From positions 1-25,470 of IMG/VR virus record IMGVR_UViG_3300031857_001246: a stretch of DNA of 25,470 nt, one strand, 5' to 3'. The position numbers and the translations under genes are program-made. The notes under the pieces were generated by a model, which was not told where the DNA came from, did not search any database, and worked only from the letters and a program-made list of their open reading frames with translations. Below, piece after piece: positions 387 through 20,425 of this stretch. Source of the stretch: a virus. Each line of letters begins with the position of its first letter. Within the stretch, counting starts at the first letter, position 1.

Positions 387-442
387 GGGGGGAACGCTGT
401 GCAAAGGCTTTTCTAGCTTGCGGACGAGCAGTTAGTACCCCC
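387..442 (+). ncRNA. Structured RNA leader, unclassified, upstream of the winged-helix gene
   Basis: The 79-base gap between two early genes can fold into a nested RNA. GGGGG (388-392) pairs with CCCCC (438-442), CTG (397-399) with CAG (429-431), GCAA (401-404) with TTGC (418-421), and GCT (407-409) with AGC (415-417) around a 5-base loop. A competing hairpin pairs CTAGC (413-417) with GTTAG (431-435) and TGC (419-421) with GCA (428-430) around a GGACGA loop. The ribosome site AAAGGAG (448-454) follows directly, so the element would lie in the 5' leader of the gene at 460. There is no U-tract, so it is not a simple terminator. I cannot match it to a known family. Confidence 0.4.
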
Positions 443-447
443 ACCTA

Positions 448-454
448 AAGGAGA
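448..454 (+). promoter_or_regulatory. Shine-Dalgarno site of the gene at 460
   Basis: AAAGGAG ends 5 bases before the ATG at 460. It is a near-perfect anti-16S match and lies just 3' of the folded leader at 387-442. It is therefore the natural target if that RNA controls translation. Confidence 0.6.
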
Positions 455-459
455 AAATA

Positions 460-792
460 ATGAATGATATTTTTGGCAACATGAAAGAATCAATGGAGAG
501 ATTCTTTGGAACTGCACCTTTTAAGTTGGCAAGAAACCAAGACCCTACAACGAGCCATCAGGCGGCTCAAGGGGTTGATAGCACCAAGCTAGAACAAATG
601 GTCTACGAGGCTATTAAGGGCTTCCCTGATGGGTGTATCTCAGACGAGATACTGGAGATGTATCCAAACTACCCATATTCCTCTATAACAGCAAGGTATC
701 GTGCTTTGTTAGACAAGGGATTTATTGAAGTGTCGGGTGTCAAACGTGGCAAATTTGGCAGAAATCAACGAATTATGAAAGCTGTCAAATGA
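460..792 (+). CDS. Winged-helix-like phage protein
   Basis: This 110-residue protein carries the phage motif DPTTSHQAA (residues 28-36). A helical segment (LEQMVYEAIKGFP, 44-56) follows, then GCISDEILEMYPNYPYSSITARYRALLDKGFIE. That last arrangement is helix, short helix-turn, a recognition-type helix (75-86) and a beta wing, with a basic end (GKFGRNQR). It is the pattern of small winged helix-turn-helix proteins in early regions of phages and suggests DNA binding, perhaps transcription control. The fold assignment is by pattern only. It has a strong ribosome site (AAAGGAG). Its last codons overlap the next gene as ATGA at 789-792, so the two are coupled. Confidence 0.72.
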   Translation: MNDIFGNMKESMERFFGTAPFKLARNQDPTTSHQAAQGVDSTKLEQMVYEAIKGFPDGCISDEILEMYPNYPYSSITARYRALLDKGFIEVSGVKRGKFGRNQRIMKAVK

Positions 793-5386: not shown

Positions 5387-7342
5387 TTAAGCAATTGCTA
5401 AGAATATGAATGTGCCACCAGAGGCATTGATTTCAGATGGTGCTGTTGAACTAATTTCAAAACCTGCTGAGTAAGTATCAATGTAGTCTGTATTGGTAAC
5501 TTCAGCCGCAGTAGAGTTCAATAAAAGATAAGGGTCATTTCCTGAAACGATACCCCTTGCACTATCCCAGACGTACCACGAACCTGTGTCGTCTGTGCGC
5601 TTTATCAGGACAAACCTTGCGCCACCTGTAAAGCCACAATCAATTTGTTTTGTAGTTGCTGTACCTGTGTATGAGCCTACTTTGGAAACACCCGCACAAG
5701 TTGCAAACAAATAAATGACGTAGGTTTGGGAGGAGGCGCTATTAGAAGTTCCTACAGTAAACACAGTTGATGTGGGCGCAGTATCGTTCCACATGGTGCT
5801 TTGCACGTCCCATGGTTGTGAGTCATTTAAACTTCCACGTTTTGTTGGGCCATTAAAAGCATCGTAAACACGCCAATTTGATGAATTACTTCTGTTTTTT
5901 GTAATCATTAACTCAGGTACTGCACCTAAGTTGTGCGGTAATGTTTGATTTGCTCCCGTCCCCGTATAGCAAACCACATCAAAGAAGCTAGGCGCACGTC
6001 TGAAGAAATGTCCATATATGTTACTGGCGTTATTAAAAGACCCTGAGTCAGCGTAATTAACAGTAATTCCATCGTTATTAAAACTTACTAAATCTGAACC
6101 AGATGCTTCTGAATTTGTTAGAGCAGTGCTAATAAATTGGTTTACACCTCTTAGTCTATCAACTACAGCCCTGCTAAAAGTTATGGCAGCTCCTCTTGTC
6201 CCCGCTTCTACATAGTCAGCATTAAATCCAACGCCTGTTATTTGTCTATTTTGAGTTTCATTGCCTGTCCATAAAACAGTATTAAACACACTAGTCCCAC
6301 TTGTAGGCACTTTCATTGGGCCTCTGCGAATTGCTATGTAGATGCAAAATTTACTTGCACTACCCATCCTAGCAACAAACCCTGTAGAAGTTGGAGAAGT
6401 GTCTCTACCATTTATGCTTTCAGCATTAGAACTATCTGGAAGTAAATTAGCATTAGTTCCAGAACCAGATGGAGGAGCTGGCATACCTCTCATACTATCG
6501 TTCATAAACCAATCATCGTCTTGTCTTTGCAACATTACAAATTGTGGTTCATACCCTAAATTAACAGTAGCGTTTCCTGAGCCATCAGTAGTAAAACTAC
6601 CGCAAGTAATTACATTGTCTGTTCCAGTTAAACCAAAACCTCCTGCGTCATGTGCAAAGACATACGCCACATAAGTGCTACCAGAAGCATTAACATTTGA
6701 ATTTGTACCAAGGCTAAACACGCTTGATGTTGCTGTTGTGCTGTTCCAAACTGTTGAATCTGTTGTTGGTGTTCCTGTGTAAGCAAAGTTGTAATATTGT
6801 GTATTTGCAATACTTCGGTGATATATCATCCAATCACCAGTTGTGTTTGTTCGTTTAACAATAATGCAACCTGGAACTGAACCTAAATTGTGAGCAATTG
6901 TCCTGTTAGAACCTGTGCCTGTCCATGTCACAACATCAAAAAACTTTGGCTGTTTGCGGAATGTCCATGAGGCAGTCGCTGAACCTGTTATGTTTGTCCC
7001 ATACCCGTTTGAACCTAACGTAAAGCCGTTATTGTTAAACGATGTTAAGTCATACGAACCGCCTGTATTATTTTGAGCGTCTGAAAAATTTGAATAGATT
7101 TGATATGCAACGCCTCTTGCGGTATCTGTAAGTACATGTCTAGAACTATTGGCTCTACTTTTAATCCAAACCAACCCACCATTTGTAGATAAATCAACGC
7201 CATTTGTAATTGTCTGACCTGTTGGAGCATTGCCTGTGTAAAGGTATGTGCTAAACACTTCTTCAATATACACAGGAACAATAGGAACACCACCACCAAA
7301 GGCATCGTAACTAGCCGCACCAGAAGTTGCTTGTAATGGCAT
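5387..7342 (-). CDS. Tail fibre / receptor-binding protein with duplicated domain (DUF7483-like)
   Basis: I place the start at ATG 7342-7340 (651 aa). It has GGAGG 5 bases upstream and forms a TAATG overlap with the HNH stop; a start further upstream would run into the HNH gene. The protein is a tandem duplication: FFDVVTWTGTG (134-144) and HNLGSVPG match FFDVVCYTGTG (453-463) and HNLGAVPE, and YVAYVFAHDAGGFG matches YVIYLFATCAG. The chain ends in GGTFIFLAIA, a typical end of this virion domain. It is glycine-, threonine- and asparagine-rich and beta-stranded, as expected for a trimeric fibre. A chaperone gene follows directly. It probably contacts the host surface. Confidence 0.8.
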   Translation of the reverse strand: MPLQATSGAASYDAFGGGVPIVPVYIEEVFSTYLYTGNAPTGQTITNGVDLSTNGGLVWIKSRANSSRHVLTDTARGVAYQIYSNFSDAQNNTGGSYDLTSFNNNGFTLGSNGYGTNITGSATASWTFRKQPKFFDVVTWTGTGSNRTIAHNLGSVPGCIIVKRTNTTGDWMIYHRSIANTQYYNFAYTGTPTTDSTVWNSTTATSSVFSLGTNSNVNASGSTYVAYVFAHDAGGFGLTGTDNVITCGSFTTDGSGNATVNLGYEPQFVMLQRQDDDWFMNDSMRGMPAPPSGSGTNANLLPDSSNAESINGRDTSPTSTGFVARMGSASKFCIYIAIRRGPMKVPTSGTSVFNTVLWTGNETQNRQITGVGFNADYVEAGTRGAAITFSRAVVDRLRGVNQFISTALTNSEASGSDLVSFNNDGITVNYADSGSFNNASNIYGHFFRRAPSFFDVVCYTGTGANQTLPHNLGAVPELMITKNRSNSSNWRVYDAFNGPTKRGSLNDSQPWDVQSTMWNDTAPTSTVFTVGTSNSASSQTYVIYLFATCAGVSKVGSYTGTATTKQIDCGFTGGARFVLIKRTDDTGSWYVWDSARGIVSGNDPYLLLNSTAAEVTNTDYIDTYSAGFEISSTAPSEINASGGTFIFLAIA

Positions 7343-8016
7343 TAAAACCTCCAACCTTTGCTCAGATTTTCGTGAGCAGTTATAACTTGTAAATTCCAAG
7401 GAACGTGCATACCCGCTACGCCTTTTCCGTTAATTGGAACGATGTGGTCAACATGGTGTTTTATACCAGTTTGGATATACCTTGCTTCAGAAACATCGTA
7501 CATCTCTTGAATCATTGCTTTATCAATGGCTGTTAACCAAGATGGTGTAGCTGAGTCCTGAGCCGCCCTACGCCTTGCTCTAGCCGCAACATAACGCTCT
7601 TTGTTGGCCTTGTAAAAGTTGCTTGAATACTCAGGATTACGCTCATGCCAAGCCCTGCCAGCTTTTACTGAATACGCTTTAATTTTCTCAGGATTGGCTT
7701 TAGCCCATGCTTTTGTCTGTTCTTGCACTTTTTCTGGATTGTCTTTGCGATATTGTTTGGCATAAGCACTACGCTTATCTCTGTTTTTCTCGTCATATTT
7801 TTTGTTAATGGCAGCTTGTTTCTCAGGATTCTTAGCCCTCCACTCACGCAAATACTCACGAGTTCTTTTCCTGTATGTCTCAATGTTTGCCTGTCTGTTT
7901 TCACGACCAGCTTTAACTCGACAAACCCGACAAGTTCCGTAGTTTTTATTCCTACGCTTGTCCATTTGGAATTCATCCAAAGGTTTGTCAACATTACATT
8001 TCTTGCAGATACACAT
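7342..8016 (-). CDS. HNH endonuclease 1 with zinc ribbon and 15-residue repeats
   Basis: This 224-residue, free-standing HNH nuclease lies between two fibre genes. Residues C4-x2-C7 and C29-x2-C32 form a zinc ribbon. The middle (59-130) is a repeat of the unit W/Y-x3-N-P-E-K, whose asparagines fall at 63, 78, 93 and 108, exactly 15 apart, with a diverged copy at 127. The C-terminus is the nuclease: H188-V-D-H191-IVP, then HVPWN208, then H215-E-N217. Such genes usually act as homing endonucleases, cutting alleles that lack them. It starts 2 bases after the 816-aa fibre stop with no clear ribosome site and ends in TAATG. Its base composition resembles its neighbours, unlike the second HNH gene. 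Confidence 0.9.
   Translation of the reverse strand: MCICKKCNVDKPLDEFQMDKRRNKNYGTCRVCRVKAGRENRQANIETYRKRTREYLREWRAKNPEKQAAINKKYDEKNRDKRSAYAKQYRKDNPEKVQEQTKAWAKANPEKIKAYSVKAGRAWHERNPEYSSNFYKANKERYVAARARRRAAQDSATPSWLTAIDKAMIQEMYDVSEARYIQTGIKHHVDHIVPINGKGVAGMHVPWNLQVITAHENLSKGWRF
7627..7842 (-). repeat. 45-base coding repeats in HNH endonuclease 1
   Basis: This DNA encodes residues 59-130, where the unit W/Y-x3-N-P-E-K recurs with a 15-residue (45-base) period. Asparagines lie at 63, 78, 93 and 108, followed by a spaced copy at 127. At the DNA level the string TCAGGATT (+ strand) recurs at several NPEK codons, so the copies look like products of duplication. Confidence 0.75.
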
Positions 8017-19637: not shown

Positions 19638-19653
19638 GTAGCCTATAGGCTAC
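19638..19653. repeat. Perfect 16-base palindrome at the HNH 2 stop codon
   Basis: GTAGCCTATAGGCTAC reads the same on both strands. The TAG stop codon of the downstream HNH gene (19652-19650) lies inside it. It could be an operator or a recombination/cleavage relic of the homing endonuclease insertion. It has no U-tract, so it does not act as a classical terminator. Confidence 0.6.
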
Positions 19654-20189
19654 AGAATCTCAAACTTATTGTGTTTAACAAGATTTTGTCTTGCTTCAAT
19701 CACTTGTATGTTCCAAGGAACATGTAATCCACAAACAATATTAGACACTAAAGGAACTATATGGTCAACATGCCAATCAACTTTAGTTTTACTTTTTCTT
19801 AACTTTGCAAGTTCATATGCCTCGTCAAGCATCCATAAATCTATATCAGTTAACCACTTTGGAGTTGCTTGTTTTTTTGTAGCTCGTCTAAATGCGTTAA
19901 GTGATGTAACTTTATGTAAATTTTTTTGCTTCCATTGCTTTACTAATTCGTTACATTTTTCTTTATTTTTTTCCTTATATTCAATGCAACTTAAATTTCT
20001 TTTGTCTTTATTTCTTAAATGATATTCTTTTTGCTTTTTCAATTGAATATGCTTTGTTTTGGCATATCTATCTTTCATGTACTTTTTTACACATTCTTTA
20101 CATTTGTCTTGTCTTTCATCTTTTGATTTGTTATGAAATGAAAAAAAATCATAAGACTTTTGAACATTACAACAAATGCAAATTTTCAT
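19650..20189 (-). CDS. HNH endonuclease 2, AT-rich, zinc ribbon and 15-residue repeats
   Basis: This 179-residue nuclease has a zinc ribbon (C4-x2-C7, C30-x2-C33). Its basic middle contains a 15-residue repeat, Y56...N60, Y71...N75 and W86...N90, each followed by K two or three residues on. The HNH core is WH140-VDH143-IVP, HVPWN160 and N169. I chose ATG 20189, which overlaps the preceding stop as ATGA and matches the start of HNH 1; ATG 20201 is an alternative with four more residues. The gene is strikingly AT-rich with long T runs on the + strand, unlike its neighbours, which suggests recent acquisition. It is probably a homing endonuclease. Confidence 0.9.
   Translation of the reverse strand: MKICICCNVQKSYDFFSFHNKSKDERQDKCKECVKKYMKDRYAKTKHIQLKKQKEYHLRNKDKRNLSCIEYKEKNKEKCNELVKQWKQKNLHKVTSLNAFRRATKKQATPKWLTDIDLWMLDEAYELAKLRKSKTKVDWHVDHIVPLVSNIVCGLHVPWNIQVIEARQNLVKHNKFEIL
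19911..20024 (-). repeat. 45-base-period coding repeats in HNH endonuclease 2
   Basis: These bases encode residues 56-93, with three W/Y-x3-N-x2-K units 15 residues apart. The same period and motif are present in the first HNH gene, although the DNA is much more AT-rich here. Confidence 0.7.
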
Positions 20190-20425
20190 AATATTTTCCA
20201 TTTCTTCTCTCTAATCACAGTTTCCGAGGCCAAGCCTTCTAGGTGTCCTGTAAGTAGTTCAATAGTTTTAATGTGCCTGTAAGCGTCTTCACGCTTATCA
20301 CATTCTTCCCCACTTGTGTTAATTATTACACTAATCTGCTCTTTTTTCAAATTATCTATGACTTCTTTGAAAAAGTCATCATTTAATAGGTTTTTAGCCC
20401 ATTGTGCTAGAACGTGCTTGTCCAT
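20186..20425 (-). CDS. Conserved small phage protein, unknown function
   Basis: This 79-residue helical protein begins with MDKHVLAQWAKNLLNDDFFKEVIDNL and ends with IREKKWKIL. Its middle (NTSGEECDKREDAYRHIKTIELLTGHLE) matches a pattern I recognise from small podovirus proteins beside the portal and scaffold. The function is unknown; a head-assembly helper is possible. It starts 32 bases inside the 629-aa gene, in another frame, and ends in an ATGA overlap with HNH 2. It has no membrane segment. Confidence 0.65.
   Translation of the reverse strand: MDKHVLAQWAKNLLNDDFFKEVIDNLKKEQISVIINTSGEECDKREDAYRHIKTIELLTGHLEGLASETVIREKKWKIL

Follow-up and report, generated by a model that had tools for sequence, protein, structure and literature searches.

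The virus DNA analysed here, a stretch of 25,470 bases with portal and major head genes (the window), carries a structured RNA element behind a gene for a phage ssDNA-binding protein (ssb). In many other, uncultured phages the same element follows ssDNA-binding-protein genes of several unrelated families, which is the key finding of this analysis. Its nested fold is confirmed as an RNA structure kept by compensatory change. The protein encoded directly upstream in the window has an acidic tail and the C terminus DDSEIPF, and its stop codon, TAA, occupies positions 378 to 380. The parts of the element and its flanking genes are listed in Table 1.

Table 1. The element and its neighbours in the window. 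E elements are those of the E class described below.
Feature	Position	Strand	Basis or remark
Upstream gene, phage ssDNA-binding protein, 83 aa	129..380	+	phrog_18154, E 9.2e-17; phrog_7364, E 2.8e-15
RNA element	387..442	+	6 nt 3' of ssb stop
P1, 5' strand, GGGGG	387..391	+	pairs with 438-442; both-side changes in 3/5 pairs
Internal loop, 5' side, GAAC (GAA conserved)	392..395	+	alignment
P2, 5' strand, GCUGU	396..400	+	pairs with 428-432; CG/UA and GC/AU both-side changes
P3, 5' strand, GCAA	401..404	+	pairs with 418-421; 99% paired, nearly invariant
P3, 3' strand, UUGC	418..421	+	same pair counts as P3 5' strand
One-sided bulge GGACGA, conserved, between P3 and P2	422..427	+	alignments
P2, 3' strand, GCAGU	428..432	+	pair counts in window-class relatives
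Internal loop, 3' side, UAGUA (AGUA conserved)	433..437	+	alignment
P1, 3' strand, CCCCC	438..442	+	same basis as P1 5' strand: both-side changes in 3/5 pairs
3' tail ACC, conserved	443..445	+	A 71%, C 84%, C 85% in 96 distinct E elements; window-class alignment
Shine-Dalgarno-like AAAGGAG of next ORF, outside fold	447..453	+	sequence
Downstream ORF, phrog_1123 (unknown function)	460..792	+	E 8.2e-10

A nested fold kept by compensatory change

The original prediction for positions 387 to 454 described one fold of four nested pairings, GGGGG/CCCCC, CTG/CAG (397-399/429-431), GCAA/TTGC and GCT/AGC (407-409/415-417), with the ribosome site AAAGGAG directly behind it, and a second hairpin that excludes the first. 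The sequence and its coordinates were correct on direct check, and the four pairings and the ribosome site were all present. Folding energy alone did not distinguish the region (positions 370 to 480, −24 kcal/mol, z = −0.17, with 79 of 200 shuffles folding as well or better), and therefore a reading of the single sequence would not have stood alone. The minimum-energy fold of this stretch contains P1 and pairs part of the inner hairpin otherwise.

The nested fold showed compensatory changes in relatives of the window. P1 (five pairs), P2 (five) and P3 (four) were 99.7% paired across 24 distinct window-class rows, which were hand-picked and include the 11 seeds of R1, the covariance model that aligned them. 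Cells changed on both sides numbered 33 compared to 9.3 in shuffles, and the covariation score was 0.337 compared to 0.169 in shuffles, none of which (0/500) reached the observed value; slid controls gave at most 0.124. The both-side changes fall in three P1 pairs and two P2 pairs, while P3 is neutral as to covariation because it is nearly invariant in the window class. Two measures were weaker: 5 pairs show a both-side change (as high in 18/500 shuffles), and further pair types number 13 (matched by 178/500). These pair counts (alignment A8) exclude the U-rich, loop-E-less and minimal classes; they also leave out GCT/AGC, which varies between relatives by eye.

The exclusive hairpin, CTAGC/GTTAG plus TGC/GCA, was the only alternative fold named in the prediction. 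It was 75.9% paired, which is the level of shuffles (77.4%), with a single both-side cell and no covariation, and a switch between competing folds was rejected on these pair counts. A structured RNA was thus correctly predicted, whereas two exclusive folds at a ribosome site were not borne out, since the alternative lacks covariation and the Shine-Dalgarno-like site lies outside the fold.

The prediction could also name no RNA family for the element, and no Rfam 15 family matches over it. There were no matches at the gathering threshold in the window, and in 20 and a further 13 loci there were none over the element, with int-alpA and tRNA matches elsewhere. Low-threshold scans returned sn2991 (E 5.5), TB11Cs5H2 (E 6.2) and REN-SRE (E 2.1), none of which came near its gathering threshold. 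Int-alpA RNA (RF02996) reached its gathering score away from the element in two relatives of the window phage (L035:952-1027 and L007:187-263, both on the minus strand). An intrinsic terminator was rejected, as the sequence after P1 is mostly ACC and not a U tract; each of two scans found a separate terminator-like hairpin within 100 nt downstream of 2/108 E elements among the matches listed (L282 and L440 in one, L217 and L440 in the other). A tRNA was rejected as well, with ARAGORN finding none in the window or at ten loci, including L154, L036 and L043.

Distribution and classes of the element

Relatives were collected with two gene-based scans of IMG/VR, from which the best 80 ssb-fetched and the best 80 ORF-fetched loci were taken, and an element recurs in several classes at their gene junctions. 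Gene-blind pattern scans of IMG/VR gave at least 120, at least 119 and 29 matching stretches. Model R1 was built from 11 window-type sequences (alignment A3) and model R2 from the E class; alignment A4 mixes classes and was a reading aid only. R1 matches the window, itself among the seeds, at positions 384 to 445 (89.6 bits, E = 1.8e-21) and nowhere else in it at E ≤ 1. At the same threshold there were 71 matches in 81 sources and 79 in 80 sources, on the plus strand and near the gene junction, and five loci (L036, L043, L045, L050 and L154) had two apiece. R1 and R2 together (E ≤ 0.01) placed the element in 71 of the 80 best ssb-fetched loci. Six of these 80 (L017, L021, L022, L023, L051 and L075) have a plain GGGGG/CCCCC hairpin instead, L029 has no element, and L077, whose contig runs on for only some 90 bases, shows none in them. 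At L065, R1 matches weakly (E 0.63).

The family plan consists of the outer stem P1, a GAA/AGUA internal loop, which may resemble a loop-E/bulged-G motif, an inner helix and a variable hairpin. The E branch reads P1 - GAAAGC GGA UGC - variable interior - GCA GC GAGUA - P1' - ACC. P1 pairs are diverse in this class too: among the matches listed, 96 distinct E elements have very different P1 sequences, such as GGGGCC/GGCCCC, GTTGG/CCAAC, TGTTGA/TCAACA and CAACATC/GATGTTG. In 72 distinct aligned rows among these matches (alignment A9, which excludes L245-L284), 98.8% of the counted cells were paired, with both-side changes in each of the four counted P1 pairs (67 cells compared to 15.6 in shuffles), although the number of such pairs, 4, was matched by 256/500 shuffles. 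The covariation score was 0.321 compared to 0.072 in shuffles. Near invariance of the inner GC and UGC/GCA pairs is in part an effect of the search pattern, in which they were obligatory. The interior opens with a helix of its own (mean contiguous pairing 3.41 compared to 2.20 in shuffles, maximum 2.48 in 500, for 83 interiors among the matches listed), set off by a fixed spacer of two bases (GU) or three (GAC or GAU). Elements from the E and covariance-model searches were deduplicated on their neighborhood from 306 to 235. By eye, some large interiors contain T-arm-like hairpins, for example GGUUG-UUCGACU-CAACC (L154:2824-2926, L036:1343-1435 and L043:3256-3348).

The element is single copy in nearly all long records examined. 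Among 20 long E records, 19 had one good match and G405 had two, with weak extra matches in G405 and G411, and 19 of 20 long window-type records, which were drawn from loci already fetched, contained the element, the exception being the record of L029. One 5-kb contig (L407) carries two opposite ssb-element copies and is probably an assembly chimera. In INPHARED, blastn with an E-type query gave two good matches (MW202462 and MW202544), and a window-type query gave no good match. R2, run on five INPHARED records only, added MW202710, where the match starts 18 nt behind an annotated "single strand binding protein." These three records are all assemblies from Manatee Spring. The portal protein of the window is 68 to 70% identical to the portals of three Manatee Spring records and 57% identical over 83% to that of Methylophilales phage Venkman.

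A blastn search of plasmids gave no full match. A host chromosomal function was rejected: 15/399 family genomes matched at E ≤ 0.01, and four of these were judged clear, in Comamonas odontotermitis, a Limnohabitans metagenome-assembled genome, G018 and G190, all of the same family. Five weaker matches in which the motif was inspected look like chance. Of ten pattern matches in genome contigs, the eight that look like chance matches in coding sequence were dropped. The Comamonas copy stands alone upstream of an ORF resembling exonuclease III and is followed by a terminator-like hairpin (L440:1702-1753), and the Limnohabitans copy lies behind a Tad2-like (PF11195) anti-defense gene and not behind ssb (L436:3760-4413).

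The element follows ssDNA-binding-protein genes of unrelated families

The longest open frame with its end near P1 was counted as the upstream ORF, a rule that may misassign a few. Among the matches listed, 195/207 rows have an upstream protein (12 have none). Small SSBs of the phrog_18154 type form the largest cluster (90), followed by phrog_27714 (36), phrog_9528-like (13) and Enc34-type ssDNA-binding (10) proteins and a five-member cluster of unknowns. Smaller clusters are of the DUF669 type (4), small Cys-rich ORFs (4), Pam3_Gp34 (4) and SSB (2), and the smallest groups are Gam-like, RecT and Tad2-like proteins and singletons.

Named ssDNA-binding PHROGs account for 39/106 upstream proteins of E elements among the matches listed (phrog_18154, 23; phrog_112, 10; phrog_6015, 4; phrog_44, 2), and Pfam assigns PF10991 to 10, DUF669 to 3 and SSB to 2. 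Counted as whole BLAST clusters, six families, picked after the upstream genes had been seen, directly precede 73/106 E elements among these matches (32, 13, 12, 10, 4 and 2), 25 of the 73 falling in two families that are gp32/SSB-like by model only. The same six families make up 68/1742 ORFs (3.9%) in 110 of the loci; the 106 elements include two from L436 and L440, the background ORFs come from 110 other loci, and some of the loci are related and therefore not independent of one another. Against the association, the remaining 33/106 E elements lie behind other genes, including RecT, Gam-like, Pam3_Gp34, Tad2-like, DUF932, terminase, helicase and unknowns. E elements among the matches listed have 31 BLAST clusters upstream (3.76 bits) and 42 downstream (4.42 bits). 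The contrast between the two sides thus lies in function more than in family number.

An ssDNA-binding role is likely, on the strength of structure models, for the phrog_27714 and phrog_9528-like genes, the latter family being named "nucleotidyltransferase" by PHROGs. The two models have mean pLDDT values of 58.6 and 66.1. With VIA-align, their best Z scores, read with this modest pLDDT, were 6.1 and 7.9 to a PhiC31 RDF chain, followed by T4/RB69 gp32 (Z 5.8 and 5.6) and, at lower scores, numerous SSB/RPA chains. Neither model had a Foldseek match at E ≤ 0.001, and a sequence search of the PDB gave no match for phrog_27714 and one chance-level match (E 0.73) for the phrog_9528-like protein. 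The element may be a way to find unrecognized phage SSB families, as these two candidates were met through it.

The element lies on the coding strand, usually a few nucleotides behind a stop codon. P1 starts 4 to 8 nt past the upstream stop in 157/208 rows, a set that includes one chance genome match (L441) and 13 rows without an upstream ORF, and in 76/113 E-class rows among the matches listed. Short gaps are favored anyway in compact phage genomes, and 157/208 is a raw count that includes whatever ordinary gene spacing contributes. Stop-codon readthrough or frameshifting was rejected, since gaps of 4, 5, 6, 7 and 8 nt all occur and no fixed frame continues. In some loci an HNH or small Cys-rich ORF separates ssb from the element. 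By eye, HNH endonuclease-like or other ORFs occur on either side of it (L164:2300-2879; L027, L042, L084, L099 and L143), sometimes with similar stop-to-P1 spacing. Two minus-strand ORFs with HNH-like zinc motifs, seen by eye, also lie among the structural genes of the window (7342-8016 and 19650-20201).

Possible roles and known systems

We tentatively favor the explanation that the element is a cis-acting structured RNA in the 3' untranslated or intercistronic region of the phage ssb mRNA and acts on the ssb message. Its mode of action would be stability, processing or termination-coupled folding, probably with a host factor. The element would most simply be transcribed together with ssb, because a promoter would not fit between stop codon and P1 and would have to lie within ssb. 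A ribosome paused at a stop codon would cover P1, given the size of its footprint. With P1 4 to 8 nt past the ssb stop, it would lie under the terminating ribosome, and folding would be possible only after the ribosome has departed. The folded core (P1, the GAA/AGUA loop and the GGA/UGC or GGACGA element) may then be bound by a factor common to unrelated phages, since it is conserved between phages with unrelated SSBs; this partner would most simply be a host nuclease, ribosome-associated protein or RNA-binding protein. A protein-binding element, which the original prediction had also offered, is possible. Binding would determine how stable or productive the ssb message is and in what ratio it stands to the next cistron, which would make the element retro-regulatory. 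A broader version, in which one and the same RNA module was repeatedly set behind nonhomologous ssb genes in unrelated phages, as a portable 3'-end sensor of SSB synthesis that reads ribosome departure from the ssb stop codon and feeds back on ssb output via a shared host factor, appears doubtful.

The original prediction saw a switch for the "early gene" downstream, and more generally the element could be a 5' leader, either a protein-binding operator or a riboswitch, that controls translation of the downstream cistron. We consider this unlikely. In the window the Shine-Dalgarno-like site begins 4 nt after the element, one cluster of homologous winged helix-turn-helix genes follows in 64 of the 184 elements with a downstream ORF among the matches listed (window-type loci), and in MW202462 the element precedes a gene annotated "marr family." However, a switch would be expected to serve a constant downstream gene or pathway, and none was found: downstream ORFs among the matches listed form 46 BLAST clusters, in 23/207 rows no ORF of 50 codons begins in the next 100 nt, and the distance to the next start codon is broad. 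A Shine-Dalgarno-like site is present in only 33/85 distinct E elements with a downstream start among the matches listed. Together with the lack of covariation in the alternative fold, the association with an ssDNA-binding function upstream weakens the proposed switch. In G405 a separate copy follows each of two different ssb genes, one of the PF10991 family and the other encoding a small window-type SSB. In L270 the element lies between a PF10991 gene and a tRNA gene that follows directly, and a leader function for an ORF is unlikely there. As a side observation, no Shine-Dalgarno sequence is visible before the ORF MRNQYATHTDF, which in L001-type loci (for example, L001:3250-3330) begins about 7 nt past the element.

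It is less likely still that the element acts as an insulator between the cistrons: a stable hairpin, needing no specific ligand, that would keep ribosomes from scanning or reinitiating and so uncouple the next gene from ssb. P1 is close to the stop codon, and plain GGGGG/CCCCC or near-continuous hairpins occupy the same place in some relatives, as an insulator would allow. The recurrence of the core among phages with unrelated ssb genes goes beyond this mechanical need, although the strictness of the E core was partly forced by the search, and the tRNA in L270 also argues against insulation.

It seems improbable that the ssb 3' end is processed into a trans-acting small RNA, or that P1 with the ACC tail mimics a tRNA and is recognized by tRNA-processing enzymes. 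The ACC tail itself, the ACCA directly before the tRNA in L270, the T-arm-like hairpins of the three large interiors and the stand-alone Comamonas copy with its terminator-like hairpin are consistent with such an RNA. However, position +4 is A in only 17% of 96 E elements among the matches listed, ARAGORN recognized none of the T-arm-bearing loci, and the interiors vary freely. A DNA-level site for replication, packaging or recombination that folds by coincidence is highly improbable: replication genes lie nearby and, by eye, relatives carry different classes at the same locus, but G-U pairs are common in P2, all R1 matches at E ≤ 1 in 161 sources are on the strand of the neighboring gene, and the distance to the stop codon is near constant.

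If action on the ssb message from its 3' end is correct, the element would represent a common phage RNA family outside Rfam 15 that is tied to a protein function and not to one protein family, and a compact handle on how phages tune their single-strand-binding protein. No such element was found in the literature searched, which covered neither subscription papers nor preprints. The study by Weinberg et al. (2010, PMC2864571) terms 3' UTR regulation highly unusual in bacteria and describes the L17 downstream element as a candidate structured RNA in a 3' UTR. The same study describes the STAXI motif, repeated pseudoknots near ssDNA-binding-protein genes among other DNA-handling genes that were proposed to act as ssDNA structure (PMC2864571). 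As far as these descriptions go, the present element shares with the L17 downstream element a candidate 3' UTR position but differs from it in gene and taxa, shares with STAXI the neighborhood of ssDNA-binding genes, and is tied to neither by an Rfam match.

In phage lambda, sib mediates retroregulation of int by an RNA structure downstream of the controlled gene, which contains an RNase III site. Both sib and the present element are structured phage RNAs 3' of a gene; here regulation of ssb would be the corresponding role. The present element has a conserved internal-loop core; the RNase III site is a feature of sib. The best-known control of a phage ssb gene is that of T4 gene 32, which acts at the 5' end, with the operator in the leader of its own gene. 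The autogenous translational operator of T4/RB69 gene 32 is a structured mRNA element tied to a phage ssDNA-binding gene (PMC535899). To that extent the two are alike. The present element instead lies behind the stop codon and is common to unrelated SSB families, and control of ssb from this position would be exerted at the 3' end of the gene, unlike the 5' control of gene 32.
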